A stretch of 64,000 nucleotides of DNA from assembly GCA_002205965.3 (NCBI GenBank), contig NADL03000591.1:124001-188000 (forward strand). Reading direction: 5' to 3'. Position numbers and translations under genes: made by a program. Each line of letters starts with the position of its first letter. The stretch's first letter is position 1. The notes under the pieces are model-generated. The model was not told the DNA's origin and ran no database searches. It worked only from the letters and a program-made list of their open reading frames with translations. Below, piece after piece: positions 8,342-38,434 of the stretch. This DNA comes from Kappaphycus alvarezii (lineage: Eukaryota; Rhodophyta; Florideophyceae; Gigartinales; Solieriaceae).

Positions 8342-10015
8342 TTCACAGGCCCCGTGGTGGACCGATCCTAGGCCGTAATTTAAATACTGTAAAGAAGGAC
8401 CAGGTCGATCATTTCTACCTCTGACGACGGAAATCCGGATCGTCTTTGCTTGGCTTCCTGCTTTGACAAAGCGCGTTCATGGACATACGGGGTGCAGGGT
8501 CACGTTTCTACCTGCTTTACGCCCTGCATAGCTAGCCACCTTCCGAGGCTAGCTTAGCCCGTCATGCCCCCGGATACGTGTCTGACCCGAGAGGTGATTC
8601 AAGTACGATCTGAAAAGAGCCCCGTACTGCCCGACGGCCGATGCAACATATCCACGCAGGATGTGCTTGTCGTATCCCGGATACAACAAACACATCATAA
8701 TAGAAGTCGGGCGTCGATGATATAAATCATATATATTTTATACGAACTGAGCAATCCTGCCGGGTCGCTCCTGGTCATCCCATAGCCCGTCAAATCCATT
8801 CCCGCTACGATTTGGAGCGATAAAGCAGTACACGGATCATGGAATTGCAGTTGATGACATTCACCTAGTGCAGGTAGAACTTGTTTTCATCCCTGACCCT
8901 GACCCAGCGGCGAACGTCATCCTTAACTTGAGTACGAAAACAGCCGGCTCGCCGTCAACTGGTTCCCGTGCCATTTCAGACCTGCGAGCCTCCTTCCGCG
9001 TCAACCTCACCAGTGACTCAATCTCCAGATTTTCAGGGCTCCTGTGCTCTCTTCCGATTCCAAGCATCGCCAATTGTCGAATTTCTTCCTGGTCGCCAAA
9101 AGAATCGCATGGTCCCGGGTGATTTCTCGATACCTCTACTCGCCTCGATACCCTCCGCGAGATAGCGTTTTTGAAAATCCAACGCACTTTTCTGCATGGT
9201 GCAGCCGTTGCCTTCGATGCCCTCGGCGGAACGATTCCACAATTAGCAACGATGAGCAATGTCTATCTTATCGGCAGCACTCCCTCCCTGCAAGCTATTG
9301 CCCAAATAGGTCTCCCATCTGTAAAAAGGCAGACTACGACTTTGCTATCGAAACAAGAGTTGCTAGCTTTCACGCTGTGAGCTAAATCGACTGCACCGCG
9401 ATACGCATTCAACACGCTGTTGCACCTATCAAATGGGACATCAAAATGTGAGCCCCATACACAATTTTTCCCTCCCTTTGACCAGTCGCGAGATTGCAAC
9501 TTTCGACGGAACACCGAACGGTGCAACGGCCACTTCGAGCCCTCCGCATTGGCAGAACTCCCTGACGCCGCAAAAAGACAGCCAGGTCAACTATTCGACA
9601 AAGCTGTTCTGAACGTCTGCTGAAGCCCTTACAATGTGGCTCTCCGTAAGTGGCGTGCTGGTGAGCGCACCATCACAGACATCAATCCTGAAGTCTGCCC
9701 AGCCCGATCTTTTGTGCAGAAGACCCAACATTTAATATTTAAGATGAACACAGCCGTCCAGCCCCCTTTATGTTGACCATCCAGTTAGTTTCAAACTTAA
9801 TAGTCGGTCAGTAGGTGTACAGATGAGGGAATGCTGTGCAAAGCAATAAACGAACAGTTTTGTCTACCTGTCTTATGGCATCAGTCACCCCCCTTTTCAG
9901 GAACAAACCATTAATTTCTTGCATATCAAGTTAAATAAAACTTTGTCATTGTTTTTTATGTTTTGGGACCCTCTGAGTCGATTAGAACCATAGGGTTTTG
10001 ATGAAATAAAGGGGA
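8342..10015. other. Spacer with coding-like fragments of unknown origin
   Basis: Overlapping open frames exist on both strands at about 8860-9390 (up to 132 codons minus, 113 codons plus). The base composition is gene-like, but no frame is open throughout and I recognise no domain. It may be an old gene fragment or part of the neighbouring LINE-like copy. From 9630 to 10015 nothing is visible. Confidence 0.35.
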
Positions 10016-10239
10016 TGATAGGGGTAAATCGGCGGGGAAGAGATCCTCAGAACCAATTACCCGGAGAAGGAGGTGTTGCGAGCGACAAAAGTGCTACCGT
10101 GGTATTGTTGAGCGAACAAAAGGGAGTGTATATAGAAGAGAGTTGAGAAAGCTACAAGCAAGTATAAAAGGGGCAGGGTCTACCACTGACGCTCTGCGAC
10201 TAGCGTAAGAAAAAGTTTTCTTGGGTCTGAAGTTGACTC

Positions 10240-10467
10240 TCAACTTCCTACTACTCGGGACTTGGCTTGAAGTTGTCTGATAACTTGCTTGACCTCTCCA
10301 TGAGGAAGCAGTTTACTCAGCTTCCATATAATTTTGGCTACCCCTAAAGTCCGAACAAAACTACAGAAGATACCAAGAAATGCATAAAAATATTTTGTGT
10401 GGACAATATACTCTAAGCAAAAGATACTTAAGAAACTAACAATTAATTTGGTCCTCTTATTTCCCAT
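10240..10467 (-). CDS. Hydrophobic ORF2 of the 1.2-kb repeat, copy A
   Basis: 75 codons starting 11 nt inside the end of ORF1, in another frame. The first 45 residues contain a long hydrophobic stretch (LIVSFLSIFCLEYIV) compatible with one or two membrane segments. The overlap and the hydrophobic segment are kept in copy B. The copies are so alike at the DNA level that conservation alone does not prove it is a protein. Confidence 0.3.
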   Translation of the reverse strand: MGNKRTKLIVSFLSIFCLEYIVHTKYFYAFLGIFCSFVRTLGVAKIIWKLSKLLPHGEVKQVIRQLQAKSRVVGS

Positions 10468-10986
10468 TCTCTAAATCAGATCCAAACAACTCCTCTAAAA
10501 TATCCATGCTGTCCAAGCAGTCCCCACAAATATCTGCGAATGGCTCACAGCTCTCTATTTCCCCCTGGAAGATATCTAGACTACTAAAGATATCTCCACC
10601 CGGTTCCATCGTGAGCACAACTTGATCCATACTCTCCATTCCAGGCCCCACCAGTCCAACACTTTCCATGCCCCCTGTTCCCTCATCCTCCTCCTCCTCC
10701 TCATCTTCCTCCTCCTCCTTCTCCTCCTCCTGAGCCTCATACACTAGCTCAGGGGCTAACCATTCCTCAAAGGACTCCCCGCTCTCCTCCTCGACCTTCT
10801 CAGCCTCTCCCTGACTTACCTCCCTCGCTTCTTGAGGCGGCGAACGAACTCGATGATTTGCTTCTTTGTTTTCCGCCGGATGTAGTCGTCGGCATCGGTT
10901 GGCCCGTAGGCGGCGAGACGAAGGCCATTGATGGGACGGGAAGGGCGGTTTTTGGAAATAGGGACAGAGGGGCAAAGGTTGTTCAT
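10457..10986 (-). CDS. Acidic ORF1 of the 1.2-kb repeat, copy A
   Basis: The N-terminus from the ATG at 10986 matches copy B (RPSRPINGLRLAA, then TKK-x-IIEFVRRL). The C-terminal two thirds is open from 10975 and consists of a Glu/Asp-rich tract followed by a conserved tail with three cysteines (EPFADICGDCLDSMDI). No family is recognised. The whole unit is mobile, judging by its second copy inside another transposon. The frame is disturbed about once relative to copy B. Confidence 0.5.
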
Positions 10987-11352
10987 TTTGATAGACGTTG
11001 GGGAACGGGAGGCAATGTAGGGTGTTTTGGGTGTGTGGGGGGAGAGGGGTGATGAGTAAAATGATCGGGGTATTTGGAACTTAGAATAAAGGGGTTTAAA
11101 TAGGCTCCCGGGCAGGTTCTATAGATTAGGAATAGGTAAAATAAATCTGCAAGGGATTTGCAGTAGTGCATTTGCGCCCTTCTTCTCAGAAAAGGCGAAT
11201 TTGGAGGAGGAGGTAAGCTAAAAGGGAAAGGGGACTTGATTTGGGGTCGATTCAGAGGGTTAAATACAGTATAAAATATCTAGATAAAATGGCAGTAAAT
11301 TTGGAAATGACGGTGGGAGAAGTTAGGGGCGGGATCGTTGTAGGTTGCTGGA

Positions 11353-14238: not shown

Positions 14239-14452
14239 CACTTCAACAAAGTAAGGCCTCCGCATAGAGCAGGAAGTTAATAGATTTGAGATTTGTTTCT
14301 ATCAAACCAAAGTGAGATTCTGCTCTTATTCTCTTCATTTTTCGAATGGAGTTCAGCATAGGGTGAATACATGTACAAAATGAAAAGTTGTGCAAGGCTG
14401 AATTGTGCTGATACACGCTCTGATTTTGTTCTTGATCACTCAGTACCCAGCT

Positions 14453-14770
14453 CGATTCTTCATTCCATTGTAGTCGTCTGTGTAGATAATTAAAATCTTG
14501 ATCCCACTGCAGCTAGCTAATTACTCCTGACATTTTGAGGACATAAACAGAAAGCATTGACTAAATCTGATCAAAAGGACAGAATACTACTCTGAAATAC
14601 CCCATTCAAATGCAATAATAGGTTGAAGGTAAGAACAACAGATCCGGAGGAAAGTACTCCACAGAACAATTTACATTACGCATGTGCCCAATTAACTTGT
14701 GATATCAGATCAGTACACAACCAAATAAAAGTAATATTAATCAACTCCTAATAACATGAATACCATAGTG
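14453..14770. repeat. Left arm of a 320-bp inverted repeat
   Basis: The reverse complement of this segment matches 15892-16210 along its whole length with scattered differences (about four bases in five agree by eye). Shared runs include CTATTGCATTTGAATGGGG and TGTCCTTTTGATCAG. The arms enclose 1.1 kb of AT-rich DNA. Confidence 0.85.
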
Positions 14771-15891
14771 GAATAGTTCTACAAGTTAATAGAATATTTT
14801 GAGATCAACATCCCTCCTAAACGTGTCCGCAGCCTTCTTGAAATACTTGTTGTTAATAGCTACTCTTAAAGCTTATAAAATTGTTTATATTAAATTTATT
14901 ATAATTATAATTATATTATCTTTGTGAACAAATATGCCAACATTTACACGGCTCGGCAATGATAGACAGTAAAATTTCCTTTTACCACTCATATTTTACT
15001 AAATAATACTTTACTTTGACGTGCTTCGACATGCGTTCCGCATGTTTCCAATTAATCACACCAATATTTTAACTTAAATGCCACAGTTGGTGTAGTGCAT
15101 AATATTAGAAGATCATTAAAATGCTGCAAACCATTTTAAAAGCATTAAGGTATCAGAGTGGACGGTGGATTGTGTCGGTTGGTTGCAAGGTACCGTCAGG
15201 CTTACAATCGCGACCAGTGAAAATGCGCCTTTTGCGCGCCGCTTTGGCACTTCCACAGTGCGCCTTTGCAGGTCTTTGCGTATTAGTACTGCCTCAACTT
15301 CAGGAATAGCCTGAAGGGGGCAAGGGGGAATGAAGTAAACAGTTGACCAAGGTGTCGCTTTTATTTCGACTAGGTCGCTGCGTAGTGTCTCCAGTAGTTA
15401 CAAAAAGCTCCCAGTATTCTTTGTGGTCCTAGTCTACTTTAACCCTATCCCTACAGTAGTTGCCCTACCTCAGCCGTGTCCCCTGTTGTGGCATGGTCCG
15501 CAGTTCGACTGACAGCTCCAGTAGTGGTGTCCAGTGACATATTACGCCTCATATGACGACGAAACAACCCCTGTCTAGTTCAGTGCTCATCAACAGACGA
15601 GCGAGCCGTTAAAAATAATTATAGAACTGCTCCTATACTCTCACTTGTAGAGTTAAACAGCCCAATTAGCATCAATGCAGTCGATAACTGTAATATAAAT
15701 CATATAGTATATGAAAATAACATAAAACTCATGTTCACAGCCCCGTTATGGTCTCAACCTGGAACAATCTGTCACAGTCGTCTCACTAGCTAGGTCTTTC
15801 GAATTGATATATTGATCTAGGTGAAGCAAATTTATGACGAACTGCAGGGTTTCGATCTCAATATATGCTATAAATTTGCACAACTCGTTTG

Positions 15892-16210
15892 CCATGGTAT
15901 TAATGTTATTAGGAGGTGATTTATGATATTTTTATTTGGGCATGTACTGATCTGAAATCAAAAGTTAATTCAGCACATGCGTTATGTAAGTTGTCCTGTG
16001 GGGTACTTTCTTCCGTATCTCTGGTGGTTTTACCTTAACCTACTATTGCATTTGAATGGGGTATTTCAGATATGGATTGTGTCCTTTTGATCAGGTGGAA
16101 GCTATGGTTTCTATTTACGTCCTCAAAATATTAGTTGTAACTAGCCAGCTACAGTGGGATCAAGAGTTAAATTACCTGCACAGATGATTAGAGTGGAAAG
16201 AACAATCGAG
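15892..16210. repeat. Right arm of the 320-bp inverted repeat
   Basis: Partner of 14453-14770 in opposite orientation. The pair may be two insertions of one repeat family facing each other, or long terminal inverted repeats of a decayed DNA transposon; the 1.1-kb interior shows no transposase. Confidence 0.85.
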
Positions 16211-20737: not shown

Positions 20738-20947
20738 GGTATGAATTCGATGGTTCTCCTCGGATGCTTAGACCATGATGTGAGAACTTCCAGCGAGATT
20801 GGGGTTGAATCTATTTCTGTGTGGCTTGAATCCAGCCACCCCGGTATGAATTCGATGGTTCTCGTCAGATGCGTGTAGCCTGAAGTGAGAACTTCCTATG
20901 AGATTCGGATCGAATCTCCATCTGTTTGACTTGGATTGCCTCCCAAA
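20738..20947 (+). repeat. Two-unit tandem repeat, period about 105 bp
   Basis: ATGAATTCGATGGTTCTC occurs at 20741 and again at 20846, and the following about 85 bp of each unit correspond with differences (TGAGAACTTCC, GAATCT blocks). The first unit is in an open frame beginning at 20588 (+); no protein family is recognised. Confidence 0.8.
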
Positions 20948-24398: not shown

Positions 24399-24796
24399 GT
24401 ATGCGTAGTGTCAGCGAGGGGGAGCGGGAAAGAAAGACACAGTGAACAGGTACAAAGGTCCCCCGGGATGCAGTTGCAGTCCCGTATTTGGTTGCTGTAG
24501 TAGTGCGATTCACTAGAACGGTCAATTCTCTCTCTCTGAATCCCCAATAAACTACTTCTCTCCTCACGCCCCGATCGGGCGGGCAGTGAGGGCTTCCTTA
24601 TATAGCCGTTCGATATCTACAAAATAGCAGATACAGTGGACGATAGTCACTGTATTACCGGGAGCACAATGCAGTAGTACTGCCACTTGGCTCTTTAGGG
24701 CACAAATAATTGGATCTGCTAATTAAGATCATAGTGCGGCCAATCACAGACCGGATACCGTTCGTACAGTATACACTGTACAACATAGCCAAGGCT

Positions 24797-26161
24797 ATGC
24801 GGTCCCTCCAAAACGCACCATTGGCGGATGTCAACGACCCGCAGACCATCCAATCGCTTCGCACCCTACACCCACCGCCGAGGTGCCCTATCGCACCGCT
24901 TCTGCCTGACAGCCTCCCACCTCCTCCAGATGTCACACCGTATGCCGTCGAGTTTTCAGTCCACCGTATCTCGCGTGATACGTCTGCTGGGCCTGACCGC
25001 ACGCCGTCGCGTTGGTTTCACCTCCTGGTCAAGACACCAATCAGCCCAGAAGCTGGAATCACGGACAAAGGGGTCCTCACCCAGCTCGTCACCCGGATCG
25101 CCAAGGGCGATCTGCCGTGCCCTGTTTTGCCTCTTCTTGCTGCTGCTACGCTGCTGCCTATCCAGTCAAAGCCCGGCAAGATCCGGCCCATCGCCGTCGG
25201 GTCAGTATTCCGTCGTCTGGTCACGAAGATGCTACTCCCAGCTGCAATCGACGACACTCGCGCCTTCCTAGCCCCGTTCCAATTGGCAAAAGGGATCAGG
25301 GCTGGAATGGACGAAATCGTACATGACACGCGCACGCTGCTCCGTCGGTTCTCCCGCCGACGCGAAACCGCAACGGTCGTTGTTGACGCGCACAACGCCT
25401 TCAACCTCGTTGATCGGCAGTCAATGTTGGACCGATTGCCCTCGCTAGCACCGGGCCTTGCCCGGTTCGTCAATATGATATGCGGCCGCACGCAGCCGTA
25501 ACTGATTGTGCCAAACCGTCACAAAACCACACTGCAAAGTGCAAAAGAGACCGAACAAGGCGACCCGGCCAGCATGCTCCTGTTCTCCCTAACGATCCAG
25601 CCGCTCATCAGCCAGATCGCCACAGAGACAGGTGTAGTCATGAATCACTGGTATGCCGACGATGGGACCCTGATGGGGTCTCTCTCCGAGCTCCGAAGAG
25701 CGATCCGCTTACTCCGCGACGAGGGACCTGCATACGGCCTACACCTCAACGCCGCCAAAACTCGCGTTTTCTGGTCCACTGTCCCGCGGCCAGAACGCGA
25801 GGCGTTCCTTCGCGAGTTCCGCCTTGACGAGTGCTCCTCCGACGGGTTTGAACTACTGGGAGCTCCAATAGGCAACCGCTGGTTCACTCAATCGTTCCTG
25901 CAAGGCAAGACCGACAGTTGCCCCCGAACCCTCGAGTTACTGCTCATGGTTGACGACCCTCGGGCCCGCTTCCACATGCATCGCCTGTGCGCGTCGGCCT
26001 GCCTCGTGGAGCACGCTTTCAAGCTCGCTGACCCGACGGACGCCCGTCCAGCCGCCGACGCTTTCGACACCCAGCAACGGTCGTTCTCCTCGGAGCTTCA
26101 TGGAATCACGATGACTGATAAAGCGTGGTCCCAGGCTACCTTGCCCTTCCGACGTGGTGGT
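24797..26161 (+). mobile_element. LINE-like reverse transcriptase element, copy 1
   Basis: The plus frame encodes a reverse transcriptase: IRPIAVGSVFRRL (N-terminal motif), VVVDAHNAFN (motif A with the first catalytic Asp), EQGDPASMLLFSLT (motif B) and YADDGTLMG (motif C, two catalytic Asp). The frame is continuous from at least 24797 to 26161 apart from one in-frame stop near 25500. Sequence family by position and by the C-terminal domains of copy 2: non-LTR, probably of the type with a restriction-like endonuclease after the RT. At 26162 it is cut by the nested 1.2-kb repeat and resumes at 27452. It is rich in CpG and GC relative to the flanking AT-rich graveyard. Confidence 0.85.
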
Positions 26162-26351
26162 TGATAGGGGTAAATCGTCGGGAGAAGAGATACTTAGGAC
26201 CAAGTACCCCAAGACGGAGGTGTTGCGAGCGACAAAAGTGCTACCGTGGTATAGTTGAACGAATAAAAATGAGTGTATACGGGAGAGAGTTGAGAGGGCT
26301 ACAAGCAAATATAGAAGGGGCAGGGTCTACCACTGATGCTCTGCGACCAGC

Positions 26352-26615
26352 TTAGGAAAAAGTTTTCTTGGGTCTGAAGTTGACTCTCAACTTCCTACTA
26401 CTCGGAGCTTGACCTGAAGTTGTCTGCCAACTTGCTTTGACCTCTCCATGAAGAAGCAGTTTACTCAGCTTCCATAGACTTTTGGCTACCCCTAAAGTCC
26501 GAACAAAACTACAGAAGATACCAAGAAATGCATAAAAATACTTTGTGTGGACAATATACTCTAAGCAAAAGATACTTAAGAAACTAACAATTAATGTGGT
26601 CCTCTTATTTCCCAT
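26352..26615 (-). CDS. Hydrophobic ORF2 of the 1.2-kb repeat, copy B
   Basis: 87 codons overlapping the last 11 nt of ORF1 (ATGGGAAATAA), as in copy A. The first 45 residues, with the hydrophobic LIVSFLSIFCLEYIV and FYAFLGIFCSFV, are nearly identical to copy A; the tails differ in frame. Whether it is translated is unknown. Confidence 0.3.
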   Translation of the reverse strand: MGNKRTTLIVSFLSIFCLEYIVHTKYFYAFLGIFCSFVRTLGVAKSLWKLSKLLLHGEVKASWQTTSGQAPSSRKLRVNFRPKKTFS

Positions 26616-27207
26616 TCTCTAAATCAGATCCAAACAACTCCTCTAAAATATCCATGCTGTCCAAGCAGTCCCCACAAATATCTGCAAATGGCTCACAGCT
26701 CTCTATTTCCCCCTGGGAGATATCTAGACTACTAAAGATATCTCCATCCGGTTCCATCGTGGGCACAACTTGATCCACACATTCCCCCATTCCAACCCTT
26801 CCCATACCTTCCTGTGCATCATCTTCGTCGCCCTCATCGTCGTCCTCATCGCCTTCATCAACCCCCTCATCGCCTTCATCAACTCCCTCATCATCTTCAT
26901 CAACCCCCTCATCATCCCCATCCTGATCCTCCTCTTCCTCTTCTTCGTCCTTAACCTCGTAGACCAACTCCGGGGCTGCCCATTCCTCGAAAGACTCCCC
27001 GCTCTCCTCCTCGACTTTCTCAGCCTCATCCTCACTTACCTCCCTAGCCTCTTCTTCTATAAAGAGTCGGCGAACGAACTCGATGATCTTCTTCTTAGTT
27101 TGCCGCCGGAGGTAGTCGTCGGTATCGGTTGGCCCGCAGGCAGCGAGACGGAGGCCATTGATGGGGCGAGAGGGGCGGTTTTGGTGATGGGGGCGGAGGT
27201 TGTTCAT
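26605..27207 (-). CDS. Acidic ORF1 of the 1.2-kb repeat, copy B
   Basis: 200 codons open from an ATG, with TATA-like TATTTAAA at 27323-27316 about 110 bp upstream. Parts: a basic N-terminal segment (about residues 1-50: NRPSRPINGLRLAA, TKKKIIEFVRRLF); an acidic linker with a short repeated Gly-Val-Asp-Glu/Asp-Glu-Gly unit (about 85-135); and a conserved C-terminal tail (about 150-200) with EPFADICGDCLDSMDILEEL. The layout of a basic head and acidic, Leu/Ile/Phe-containing tail would fit a nuclear or activator-like protein, but that is only inference. A GAGGTAAGT in both copies resembles a splice donor after residue 53. No known family. Confidence 0.55.
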   Translation of the reverse strand: MNNLRPHHQNRPSRPINGLRLAACGPTDTDDYLRRQTKKKIIEFVRRLFIEEEAREVSEDEAEKVEEESGESFEEWAAPELVYEVKDEEEEEEDQDGDDEGVDEDDEGVDEGDEGVDEGDEDDDEGDEDDAQEGMGRVGMGECVDQVVPTMEPDGDIFSSLDISQGEIESCEPFADICGDCLDSMDILEELFGSDLENGK

Positions 27208-27451
27208 TTTGATAGACGTTGAGGAATGGGAGGCAATGTAGAGTGTTTTGGGTGTGTGGGGGGAGAGGGGTGATGAGTAAAATGATCGGGGACATTTGGA
27301 ACTTGGAATAAAGGGTTTAAATAGGCTCCCGGGGCAGGTTCTATAGATTAGGAATAGGTAAAATAAATCTGCAAGGGATTTTGCAGTAGTGCATTTGTGC
27401 CCTTCTTCTCAAAAAGGCGAATTTGGAGGAGGAGGTAAGCTAAAAGGGAAA

Positions 27452-27680
27452 CCACGCTCCACTGCCCTCACTGGAACCCGCTTCCGTCACCGCAAGAACT
27501 TTTTCCTCCGCCAAGCTGCCATCCCTATGCACGAGTTTGTGCTCCACATCCCCTGTCGGAGTGATCCGCAAGCGCGTGTTGAGTCGCATCATTTGCACTA
27601 TCTGGTCGTCAGTTGCGCAAGCTATTTTCTCGCGCATGTCCCTGCACGTGGACGACGTGGACCAACCTGTTAGCTCTTAG
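27452..27680 (+). mobile_element. LINE-like copy 1, segment after the nested insertion
   Basis: Resumes with STALTGTRFRHRKNFFLRQ and FVLHIP, matching copy 2 (STALTGSRY-x2-DKAFLLGQ, FLLHIP). After about 40 codons the sequence jumps to the 3' end shared with 38300-38390 and 38895-38960 (GCGCATGTC-x-CTGCACGTGG, then GTTAGCTCTTAGCTAGCA), so most of the endonuclease region has been lost from this copy. Confidence 0.75.
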
Positions 27681-27979
27681 CTAGCATTATAGATACTTAA
27701 TGCAATAAAAATTTATCATACAGTATATGAGTCGGTGCGAGGGGGTCCGAAGTCATCAGTCGCCTCTTGGACGGCCGCTGCAGGATTCGACAACGGTATC
27801 CGTAGCAAAGTGGTACACAGGTTGTCCACGCTGGCCACGTGCATCGACATGCGTGACACGATACATCGTCCGATAGACGACCATATCGGACAATACACCG
27901 TTAGCTGCACCTGCGTCGGACTCAATCTCAAGTGCCGACCTCCCCGTTGAAGCCCTTTTGTTCGGCCAATATTCTTTCC

Positions 27980-34140: not shown

Positions 34141-34985
34141 CTATGAAACTGATCCCACCAACCCCTGCGGCGACACGCACGGACCCATAATCGTTGTAAA
34201 GGGGACATCCTTATACATGGCGACACCTGCGTGATCTGTCTTCAAATCGCCGCAAATGCGATCAAATGCTTTGGTAGCGCGGTTTCCAGGGTCAATTGGG
34301 GCGACGGGATGGCCTTCAAAGGTGATCAACTCACCGACAGGAGTTCCCTCCGGCGGGGCCAAGGGATCAACCTGGGTATGAGTCTCATTCGACGCACACA
34401 GCAGCATCCCTTGACTAGTGACTCCTCTCATGGCCCTTGGCTTAAGGTTGCACAATACAACAACGTCACGGCCTACCAAATCTTGCAACGGAACAAACTT
34501 GACCAAACCGGACACAATCACACGCGGCTCATCCTCCCCCACATCCACCTTTTCAACATACAAGGAATCCGCATCCGGATGCGTCTCGCACTCCAAAATC
34601 CTCCCAACTCGAATCTCCAATCTCGACAACTCCGTGACAGGCAACTGCTCCCCGTCCTCCACCCCCGCCCCGCCGACGCCACAGTAGTGAACTTGGTAGT
34701 CGCGGCGAACGCAGGCGATGCCGCCACATGTACGGAATATGTGACGGCGGGCCGGAGGTTGGCAAGGGTGACGCGAGGATGTGCGACGAGGCGACGCGAA
34801 GGAACCGGCGCGCCTTCCGCGGAATAGAGCACCGTGGCGCGTGAAGGTCCCGACCAGGAAAGTTGGGCCGCTCGGTCGGTCAGAGTGTCGATGGAGATTT
34901 TTGGGGCAGAGGCTGAAGCAGGGCTGCTCGCAGTTCCGCGTAGGGTGGCGGCGGTCGGGGTGAGGAAGGCGAGTGGGCGGCGCAT
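34141..34985 (-). CDS. EMAPII-type tRNA-binding protein
   Basis: From the ATG at 34985: a leader of about 30 residues without acidic residues (MRRPLAFLTPTAATLRGTAS), a fibronectin-III-like stretch (LSWSGPSRATVLYS, LRPAVTYSVHVAA), then the EMAPII tRNA-binding domain to 34141. The domain carries LEIRVGRILECETHPDADSL, VIVSGL, CNLKPRAMRGVTSQGML and the C-terminal EMAPII extension. Relatives are the C-terminus of methionyl- and tyrosyl-tRNA synthetases, yeast Arc1p and human AIMP1, which bind tRNA and help synthetases. The two halves are in different frames; they join after one base at a G-rich run near 34670. A splice is impossible in so short a gap, so this is a sequence error or a recent mutation. 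Organelle targeting is inferred from the leader. Confidence 0.85.
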
Positions 34986-35191
34986 GGTGGGATGCGGTTG
35001 GGAAGGCGGGGGCGGTGAGATAACGAATTTAGTAGTATGGATGGTGGATGTGGATATGAGAGTGAAGCGGGTAGGTGGGATCTGGTAGTACCGCACCATA
35101 CATCTCTCTGGACTGCTTCTCAGTATTGTACATGAGCTCTCAATGCTTAGATCTCTTCAGAACTGAGATCAGTTCAACAGACTTTCTCACT

Positions 35192-35356
35192 ACTGTACAG
35201 CACAGTACTGTACTGTACAGTACAGTACAGTACAGTACAGTACTGAACACGGAATCGCTTAATGGAGAACTGTGAGAGGGCAGTTTCGATTTTCGTTGAA
35301 ACATGAAAGTAGGGCAAGTCTTGCCCATGTGTAGGACAGTACTGTACAGTACTGTG
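35192..35356. repeat. TACTG/CAGTA satellite, two blocks
   Basis: The first block (35192-35245) is the longest in the window, with alternating ACTGT and ACAGT runs; the second (35335-35356) abuts the end of the reverse-transcriptase fragment at 35354. The open minus-strand frame runs on through both, giving an artificial Tyr/Val/Cys-rich tail. Confidence 0.85.
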
Positions 35357-36812
35357 TGGGTCCGGGTTCGGAGATCTGGCCCAGTGGTCGTCGCGCCAGT
35401 GAACCTTGGCCAGCGCCTCCTGCTGCACACGTTGGAGGTAGGTTTGGACGTGTGTGTGTGCAGCAGCGAGAGGGAGCGGGTCGAAGGAACCCAGGTCGAC
35501 GGGGTAGGCCATTCCAGGGATGTGCAGCAGGAAGTCTCGCATGTGACGGGCGGCTTGACCGAGAAGGAAAGCCTTGTCACGGCTGTAGCGGGAGCCGGTG
35601 AGCGCGGTGGAGCGGGGCCCGATATGGGATGGGGACCTCAGTCGTGCCGATGCTGCATCCATGATACTCGAGGCAGCGGTGCCATCTAGGAACGGTGAGA
35701 TGAGGGTGAACCCAAGACCGCCCTGATGGATGGGCAAGGTGGCCTGCGACCACGCTTTGTCACTGAGTTGAACGCCATGAAGCTCGGTGAAGGACTTTTG
35801 TAGCAGAGTATCAAAAGCCTCGGCAGCATTACGGGCGTCCCGTGGGTCAGCGAGCTTGAAGGCGTGGTCCACCAGACAGGTCGACGCGCAGAGGCGGTGC
35901 ATGTGAAACCGCGCGCGCGGGTCATCAACCATGGGCATAAGCTGGAGAGGTCGGCGGCACCCCTCAATCTTTTCTCGTAGGAAGGCATCGGTGAAATGTC
36001 GGTTTCCGAGCGGAGCCCCGAGGAGCTCGAATCCGTCCAGGGAGCATTCGGCGAGGCGAAATTCTTGGAGAAAAGCTTCGCGCTGTGGCCGTGGGACCGT
36101 TGGCCAATGAATGCGGGGTTTCTCCGGGTTGAGATGTAGGGCGTAGGTAGGTCCCTCGTCGCGGAGGATGCGGAGGGCTTGTTGGAGGTCAGGGAGGGGC
36201 CCCATCAATGTACCATCGTCGGCGTACCATTGGTTTAGGACGATGCCCGTGTTTTCTGCAAGCCGGCGGATGAGGAGCTGGATCGTCAGCGAGAACAGGA
36301 GCATGCTGTCGGGGTCGCCTTGCTGTGTGCCTTGAGCACTCGCAATGGTCGTTTTGTCACGATTCGGCACGATCAACGGTGGTTGCGTGCGTGTGTAAAT
36401 CATGTTGACAAACCGGGCGAGACTTCGGGCGCGCGTGGGCAGCTGGTCGAGCATTGACTGGCGATCAACGCGGTTGAAGGCGTTATTCGCGTCAACGAGA
36501 ACTGTGGCGGTGTCCATGCGATTAGAGAAGCGACGGAGCAGCATGCGCGTGCCATGTATGATGGCGTCAATCCCAGCCCTGAAGCCGTTAGCCAATTGGA
36601 AGGGGGGAGAAAGTGATGAGAATAATCAATGGCGGGTGGGATGAAAGTCTTCGTTACCACTCTGCGGAGGATCGAAGATACGGCGATGGGTCGTATCTTA
36701 CTGGGTTTGGGCCGCAGAGGTAGCAGGGTTGCTGCAGCCAGGAGCGGCAGGAATGAGGTTGGCAGGTCACCTCTCGCGATCCGAGAAACGAGTTGCGTGA
36801 GCACAGTGGCCA
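35354..36812 (-). mobile_element. LINE-like reverse transcriptase, copy 2 minus arm
   Basis: Reads on the minus strand from VLTQLVSRIARGDLP to HWARSPNPD. Motifs: KIRPIAVSSILRRV, VLVDANNAFN (A), QQGDPDSMLLFSLT (B), YADDGTLMG (C), then the thumb and the start of the C-terminal region (HMHRLCASTCLVDHAFKLAD). The RT proper is open for over 400 codons; only near the 5' end does one frame change occur, at a C6 run (about 36605). It is cut at both ends: 5' at TGGCCA (36807-36812), 3' at a TACTG satellite block. It is the larger half of the inverted duplication. Confidence 0.9.
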
Positions 36813-37561
36813 AAGGTCACACGGCCACAGCGCGAAGCTTTTCTCCAAGAATTTCGCCTCGCCGAATGCTCCCTGGACGGATTCGAGCTCCTCGGGGCTC
36901 CGCTCGGAAACCGACATTTCACCGATGCCTTCCTACGAGAAAAGATTGAGGGGTGCCGCCGACCTCTCCAGCTTATGCCCATGGTTGATGACCCGCGCGC
37001 GCGATTTCACATGCACCGCCTCTGCGCGTCGGCCTGTCTGGTGGACCACGCCTTCAAGCTCGCTGACCCACGGGACGCCCGTAATGCTGCCGAGGCTTTT
37101 GATACTCTGCTACAAAAGTCCTTCACCGAGCTTCATGGCGTTCAACTCAGTGACAAAGCGTGGTCGCAGGCCACCTTGCCCATCCATCAGGGCGGTCTTG
37201 GGTTCACCCTCATCTCACCGTTCCTAGATGGCACCGCTGCCTCGAGTATCATGGATGCAGCATCGGCACGACTGAGGTCCCCATCCCATATCGGGCCCCG
37301 CTCCACCGCGCTCACCGGCTCCCGCTACCGCCGTGACAAGGCTTTCCTTCTCGGTCAAGCCGCCCGTCACATGCGAGACTTCCTGCTGCACATCCCTGGA
37401 ATGGCCTACCCCGTCGACCTGGGTTCCTTCGACCCGCTCCCTCTCGCTGCTGCACACACACACGTCCAAACCTACCTCCAACGTGTGCAGCAGGAGGCGC
37501 TGGTCAAGGTTCACTGGCGCGACGACCACTGGGCCAGATCTCCGAACCCGGACCTACACAC
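35354..37561. repeat. Inverted duplication, arms about 755 bp
   Basis: 35354-36106 and 36807-37561 are reverse complements with only a handful of differences by eye (for example Thr/Ala, Ser/Arg and Ala/Val among about 240 codons). The 700-bp spacer belongs to the minus arm only. Both arms meet the asymmetry at TGGCCA, itself a palindrome. Confidence 0.9.
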
Positions 37562-38434
37562 GAACGCCGATGTACGGCTACGCATACGCGGTCTAGCGCT
37601 CCGCAAAGGCACCGGTGCTGCTTTTCTTTACGCACATCCCTCGGCTGACACGGAAGTATCCGCGGTACACTGGAAAACAGTGCTTCGCCGCTACTTGGGA
37701 CTGCCCGTTTATGATGACTCGCTTCCTCTGAACTGCGAGCATTGAAAACGCCAAATGGACAGGTTAGGAGACCACGCTGTAGACTTGTGCCCGTCTGGGT
37801 TCGGTCGTAAACACCGACATGAATCGCTTCGCAACGTCATATCCGGCCGTATCGCCCGCGTCGCTGGCCTGGATTGCCAGCTCGAGGTCCCACTCCTCGT
37901 GCCCGGTACTGACCTGCGACCTGCCGACATACTGGTTCTCCCACCAGCAGCTCCTGAAGGCACTGTGGCCCGCCCGATCGCCTGCGATGTCACCGTAGTC
38001 TCGATTTAAGGACGTTGTAAGAACAAGAGCTACAAGGGAAGTGGGCGGTGCTGCTGCAATTGCTCACCGCAACAAAGTGACGGACCTGAGGCCAAAACAA
38101 AACTGTCGCGTCGACTCCTCCCGCCCTCCGATAACCCTACGCAGGCCCCCGATTTCGAATTTCAACCGCTGGCCTTTGATTCCTTGGGTTACCCTTCCCC
38201 CGAAACCGTCCGCTTCATAGAGGGACTGTTGCCTCGTATTGCGGAATAATTCCACGTCAACAGGAGTGTATCCGTACACGGATTTTTAGGCGCATTTGTA
38301 GCACAATCTGGTCGTCGAGTGAATCTATTCTGCCGCGCATGTCGCTGCACGTGGGCAACGTGGACCACCCGGTTAGCTCTTAGCTAGCAATTTCGTCGGA
38401 TCATGCAGCGAACACCCGTTTACTGATGCCATGA
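36807..38434 (+). mobile_element. LINE-like element, copy 2 plus arm with 3' end
   Basis: Starts at the shared TGGCCA and runs from the region after the YADD motif to the 3' end. After the part shared with the minus arm come C-terminal domains: LGDHAVDLCPSGFGRKHRHE (His/Cys cluster), then LRPADILV and ARPIACDVTVV, which fit a restriction-like nuclease fold (Asp...Asp), then FQPLAFDSLGYPSPETVRF, and finally a 3' segment shared with 27.6 and 38.9 kb (GTTAGCTCTTAGCTAGCA). There are stops and frame changes in the C-terminal part, so this arm is not functional. It gives the best view of the family's 3' half. Confidence 0.85.

Follow-up and report, generated by a model that had tools for sequence, protein, structure and literature searches.

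Within the 64-kb stretch of Kappaphycus alvarezii DNA analysed here (the window, to which all coordinates refer), a unit of 1.2 to 1.3 kb occurs twice, each time with an acidic reading frame on the minus strand. The question raised by this locus is whether the unit is a mobile element with a gene of its own or a host gene duplicated together with its flanks, and what its gene may do. The two copies, c1 and c2, are as follows:

10016 to 11229, minus strand: unit copy c1, 1214 bp, between GGGGA direct repeats
26162 to 27451, minus strand (the gene strand): unit copy c2, 1290 bp, within a LINE-like relic

Ends and insertion sites of the two copies

Self-comparison of the window recovers both copies at the positions given by an earlier note on this DNA, on the same strand and with 84.5% identity over 1304 columns (10013-11229 versus 26159-27451). 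No third copy is present in the window at an E-value of 1e-8, and at an E-value of 1 the unit finds, beyond c1 and c2, only matches of 30 bp or less. The sharp ends attributed to the two copies are real: the terminal 21 bases at one end and the terminal 16 at the other are found in the window solely at c1 and c2 with up to three mismatches, the number of chance matches expected in this search being ~0.5 for the 16-mer and 0.01 for the 21-mer. Both ends agree in two of two copies, at independent insertion sites, the sample being these two copies only. On the gene strand, the termini read TTTCCC...TATCA (TGATAG...GGGAAA on the forward strand). No terminal inverted repeat of at least 10 bp is found between the ends of c2 (search seed 7), and no autonomous partner with the same ends is found in the 64-kb window.

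The flanks of c1 harbor a short direct repeat:

10011 to 10015, no strand: GGGGA, putative left target-site duplication of c1; with the unit's right end placed 3 bp inward, up to AAAGGGGA can be read
11230 to 11234, no strand: GGGGA, putative right target-site duplication of c1, abutting the shared end

The repeat adjoins both ends of c1 with zero offset, as claimed earlier, and moving the right end inward by up to 3 bp lengthens its reading to up to 8 bp. Of 62776 window positions, 77 (0.12%) show a 5-mer repeated at the c1 spacing, and the chance of a repeat around c1 is similar when position and length are varied together (1417 of 1250000 pairs, 0.11%). Since the ends of c1 were set by comparison with c2, the GGGGA repeat provides the chief argument for movement as a discrete unit, and we infer that it is a true target-site duplication. 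Such a putative duplication is seen at one of the two copies, 5 bp at c1 and none at c2, where no repeat of at least 5 bp is found within 12 bp of the ends.

Copy c2 interrupts a LINE-like element:

25073 to 26161, plus strand: LINE-like reverse transcriptase relic on the 5' side of c2, homologous to a second relic from 25073 onwards, with open frames beginning at 24710
27452 to 27686, plus strand: continuation of the relic after c2, lacking ~99 bp at the junction and, near 27552-27558, another internal stretch

The frame ahead of c2 matches the Pfam family RVT_1 (E-value 2.7e-08) and LINE homology is found on both sides, in line with the claim that one copy splits a reverse transcriptase. A relative of this LINE-like element, located at 36801-38389 of the window, reveals the junctions. 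At the right end of c2, homology restarts at 27452, the first base past the unit, which confirms this end to the base. At the left end, the BLAST alignment stops at 26150, which confirms the end to within 11 bases; extending it ungapped as far as 26161 adds 11 bases, of which 6 match by eye, and the reading frame continues into the shared GG. If the left homology is taken to 26161, ~99 bp of the LINE (37197-37295 of the relative) are missing at c2. The relic has also lost a longer internal stretch near 27555 (37396 to 38263 of the relative) and is thus a decayed copy in any case. Just past it, at 27776-27866, lies an inverted piece of the 3' tail of the LINE-like element, 66 of 91 columns being identical to the reverse of 38323-38410. 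Farther away, the LINE-like reverse transcriptase forms an inverted duplication (35353-36109 and 36804-37560, 757 bp, 98.9% identical, ~0.7 kb apart).

The rest of the window contains several genes present as single open frames: a Cpn20-like protein, AMMECR1, and an alpha/beta hydrolase. The first is a two-domain co-chaperonin that we take to be plastid-type, which by itself makes an alga the most likely host; this double-domain Cpn10 protein has its best PDB matches in entry 7ekq (chaperonin 23 and Cpn20). The single open frames would suit an intron-poor red alga, although this is a guess. At 34141-35099, a tRNA-binding-domain frame (34141-34662) is overlapped by a fibronectin-type-III-like one (34518-35099, at the Pfam cut-off) in a different frame of the same strand; they belong either to a single gene, interrupted by an intron or shifted in frame, or to separate genes. 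An inverted repeat with arms of ~357 bp, 80.7% alike and ~1 kb apart (14451-14806 and 15854-16210), is possibly an old inverted-repeat transposon. Two direct copies of 94 bp, 79% alike and starting 105 bp apart, occupy 20738-20936, and the segment 50001-52000 displays a strong GC skew (+0.37 over 2 kb), unlike the rest of the window. ARAGORN finds no tRNA in the window.

The gene of the unit and its divergence

The features recognized within the unit are the following:

27208 to 27451, minus strand: conserved 5' block of c2, comprising terminus, promoter region, and leader, with 6 differences from c1 in 241 aligned bases
27316 to 27323, minus strand: TATA-like TATTTAAA of c2 (counterpart in c1 at 11095-11102)
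26605 to 27207, minus strand: ORF1 of c2, 200 amino acids, basic N-terminus and acidic remainder
10816 to 10986, minus strand: c1 counterpart of ORF1, read from the homologous ATG and stopping after 56 codons because a 10-bp length difference shifts the frame
10457 to 10815, minus strand: remainder of the ORF1 frame of c1, with the acidic stretch and the conserved tail, out of frame with the ATG
26352 to 26615, minus strand: ORF2 of c2, 87 amino acids, overlapping ORF1 by 11 nt, its coding status unsupported
26374 to 26436, no strand: two inverted-repeat motifs, CTGAAGTTGACTCTCAACTTCCT and a second one 83% alike; the segment is not clearly better folded than shuffles

In both copies, the TATA-like box (TTTAAATA on the forward strand, TATTTAAA on the gene strand) starts 109 bases from the ATG, close to the 110 bp estimated previously. 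Another such box, TATAAA at 10163 at the opposite end of c1, was discarded, as it is absent from c2.

In c2, residues 1-48 of the ORF1 product are basic (pI 11.3), and the whole protein has a pI of 4.05 and a net charge of -55. The earlier note had described an acidic ORF with a conserved tail in both copies. This stands for the intact ORF of c2 and for the conservation of the tail, but ORF1 is open in c2 only: in c1 it is frameshifted after ~50 codons, and the conserved tail lies in a frame whose first ATG comes after the acidic stretch. An intron starting at the shared GTAAGT beyond the indel was set aside, since downstream of this site selection still acts on the c2 frame. The small hydrophobic ORF of the note fares less well. 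Its 11-nt overlap with ORF1 is there, but ORF2 is weakly hydrophobic (mean 0.15, best 19-residue window 1.56), its end is frameshifted in c1, and its codons give no selection signal (5 changes in 59 codons, dN/dS 1.06).

Neither ORF matches a family above the cut-off or a mobility enzyme in Pfam or PHROGs, nor does ORF1 in a PDB sequence search (best E-value 0.13), which agrees with what had been stated from the sequence. Sub-cut-off matches were set aside, namely Rpc31 for the c1 acidic ORF and HEATR1 and DUF5381 for ORF2 in Pfam, and three PHROGs on ORF1 (E-values 0.065-0.72). A single-sequence structure prediction of ORF1 yields a mean pLDDT of 47, a very low confidence that fits a disordered protein but may also reflect the mere lack of an alignment.

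Codon comparison between c1 and c2 indicates that selection has acted on part of ORF1. The N-terminal part (36 codons) exhibits a dS of 0.31 and a dN of 0.065 (dN/dS 0.21, permutation p 0.013); this block omits the first 12 codons, which lie near an alignment gap, and the ratio is 0.32 when the alignable ones are included (47 codons). After the indel, 30 codons yield a dS of 0.84 and a dN of 0.064 (dN/dS 0.076, p 0.0008). With both blocks joined, p is 0.0002, as few amino-acid changes being obtained in 1 of 5000 random placements, and the other two frames give dN/dS values of 1.4 and 2.8. The last 63 codons behave differently (dN/dS 1.07, few changes, p 0.90) and the signal over all 129 unambiguous codons is weaker (dN/dS 0.25, p=0.0046). 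The check proposed for the acidic ORF, an excess of synonymous changes, therefore succeeds in its first half and fails for the last 63 codons taken alone, where, to judge from the codon changes, conservation is at the DNA level with no constraint on the protein. The minus-strand ORF1 gene is probably real. As silent changes prevail in its first half, ORF1 appears to have coded for a working protein during much of the time since the copies split, and the c1 frameshift is probably younger.

The divergence between the copies is patchy. The 5' terminus, promoter, and leader differ by 2.5%, against 12-15% in the coding first half of ORF1 (17 of 142 bases in the N-terminal part, 14 of 93 after the indel). 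The acidic repeat differs at 11 of 84 bases; it aligns poorly in both alignments, with 13 indel events in the segment comparison. Divergence falls again in the ORF1 tail (8 of 192, 4.2%) and the ORF2 body (5 of 164), and rises to 9-12% in the remaining segments to the far end (10 of 109, then 20 of 168). These counts come from a separate segment comparison, the codon analysis being based on a MAFFT alignment that sets gaps wrongly near the TATA box and overstates divergence there. Heterogeneity over four blocks is marked (chi-square 34.9, 3 d.f., p ~1e-7), with a p-value that is optimistic as the blocks were picked after seeing the data. Two readings are available, between which two sequences cannot decide: a strong constraint on promoter and 3' DNA, or a mosaic in which segments were exchanged among diverged members of a family. 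The latter is favored in that the synonymous sites of the first half of ORF1 (dS 0.31-0.84) are far more diverged than the non-coding promoter region. A mosaic, if true, would imply more copies of the unit in the genome.

A structured RNA behind the conserved 3' block was also considered and rejected, as Rfam reports nothing in the window at gathering thresholds and folding is comparable to that of shuffled sequences. For the 3' stretch of c2, z-scores are 0.82 on the gene strand and -0.49 on the other, no better than shuffles; that of c1 folds slightly better (z -1.38), as does the 5' terminal block of c2 (z -1.63). To note, the hairpin-like repeats of one motif at 26374-26436 (GAAGTTGA...TCAACTTC, 40 bp apart) are visible in c1 too.

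Mobile unit or duplicated gene

Because its ends are alike at two unrelated sites and a 5-bp direct repeat lies precisely at the ends of c1, a mobile unit is the better reading of this locus: with a probability of about 0.5, it is a short non-autonomous gene-carrying mobile element with fixed ends, inserted in trans. Such an element would carry its own Pol II-type gene on one strand, with promoter, ORF1, and 3' region, and would depend on an enzyme supplied in trans for its insertion. An integrase- or transposase-type enzyme may have made the c1 duplication, whose 5-bp size is compatible with an LTR-type integrase, among others. The loss of ~99 bp at c2 may reflect an aberrant insertion, or recombination between neighboring insertions at a later time. 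The ORF1 product, whose long acidic part is probably disordered, might be a nuclear regulator with a nucleic-acid binding basic N-terminus and an acidic activating or chaperone-like tail, a guess drawn from its charge layout only; it might serve the element's own expression or its escape from silencing. The earlier assertion that the unit moves gains from the common ends and from the low chance (~0.1%) of the c1 repeat. It is weakened by the number of copies, by the absence of duplication and the loss of target DNA at c2, by the lack of inverted repeats or any other hallmark of a mover, and by the frameshift in c1.

In the main rival account, possible although somewhat unlikely, a host gene was dispersed by duplication: promoter, gene, and 3' region were captured during double-strand-break repair in the LINE relic, c1 marks the source or its vicinity, and the GGGGA flanking it is a chance occurrence. 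The fragment resembles a complete transcription unit whose protein is under selection, and with two copies sharp ends alone prove nothing. Break-repair dispersed gene duplicates likewise comprise a complete gene with its flanks, and the missing target DNA and absent duplication at c2 are those of filler DNA at a repaired break. Break-repair duplication accounts for c2 better than for c1, where it leaves unexplained a GGGGA repeat located exactly at the shared ends; moreover, the several repeat relics of the window raise the prior for a mobile element. If the unit is a gene duplicate, the case is ordinary.

Retrotransposition offers two further origins. The unit may be a solo LTR, with a long U3 holding an accessory gene, which lost its internal part by LTR-LTR recombination and, at c2, its duplication through recombination between two nearby insertions. 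A duplication of ~5 bp is typical of LTR integrases, and the length of ~1.2 kb, the CA at the end of the gene strand, the promoter-like box within the unit, and the absence of inverted terminal repeats would all suit an LTR. This origin is nonetheless decidedly unlikely: the gene strand starts with TTTCCC instead of TG, no retrotransposon internal part was noticed beside either copy (LINE on both sides of c2; c1 flanks inspected by eye), selection on ORF1 is unusual for an LTR, and c2 has no duplication. Highly improbable is a SINE-like unit copied from RNA by the LINE machinery through target-primed reverse transcription. LINE relics of one family are present in the window, and LINE-type insertion is known to produce short target duplications as well as target deletions, matching c1 and c2, respectively. 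Yet no poly-A or simple-repeat tail is seen by eye, and the unit and the LINE relics have no match at an E-value of 1, although a very short shared tail would escape such a search. Furthermore, the visible promoter lies inside the unit and would yield a transcript without the conserved terminus, so that a start upstream would be needed, and neither copy is truncated relative to the other.

Three other classes were rejected. The two copies are not the LTR pair of one 17-kb element, as c1 has its own duplication and c2 has a single LINE on both sides. Helitrons start with 5' TC, end with 3' CTRR, insert between A and T, and make no target duplication; the unit ends, read by eye, do not fit in either orientation, and c1 has its 5-bp repeat. 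A cut-and-paste DNA transposon or MITE was set aside, no terminal inverted repeats pairing the ends of c2.

A minimal unit among gene-carrying elements

Comparison of c2 with plasmids by blastn yields no relative, and neither do two DNA patterns of the unit, ORF1, ORF2, and the LINE-like reverse transcriptase when compared with viral contigs. Nor does one DNA pattern of the unit or ORF1 have a relative among bacterial and archaeal genome contigs, collections devoid of eukaryotic genomes in which absence says little. Among the literature matches listed, as far as their available text goes, none describes such a unit.

Mobile elements with extra genes are already known in several classes, according to the available parts of the sources. 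LTR retrotransposons of bdelloid rotifers harbor additional ORFs (PMC5408684). The likeness lies in an extra gene beyond those for mobility. The ~5-bp duplication typical of LTR integrases would also agree with c1; however, the unit has no attached retrotransposon core, and TG is missing from the start of its gene strand. Retroviral antisense genes are driven from the 3' LTR (PMC10186651) and would offer, if the unit is an LTR read in the opposite sense, a parallel for a terminal repeat whose internal promoter drives a gene; this resemblance is one of layout only, as the unit is without a provirus. Plant Helitrons of the Mothra family carry an additional gene for a single-strand binding protein (PMC4683698), again an extra gene on a mobile element, whereas the unit has a 5-bp repeat at c1 and lacks a CTRR end.

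Beyond the mobile-element reading itself, the unit could represent a previously undescribed family of minimal algal mobile units, consisting of little beyond one selfish regulatory gene and moved by the enzyme of another element. This wider proposal, in which selection maintains the acidic protein, the terminal and 3' DNA is strongly conserved, and copies swap segments, is unlikely. If true, it would provide a compact transposable element whose sole gene is no mobility enzyme and is yet kept by selection. The question would then be what this protein does for a parasite unable to move itself: support of its own expression, avoidance of silencing, or a service to the alga.
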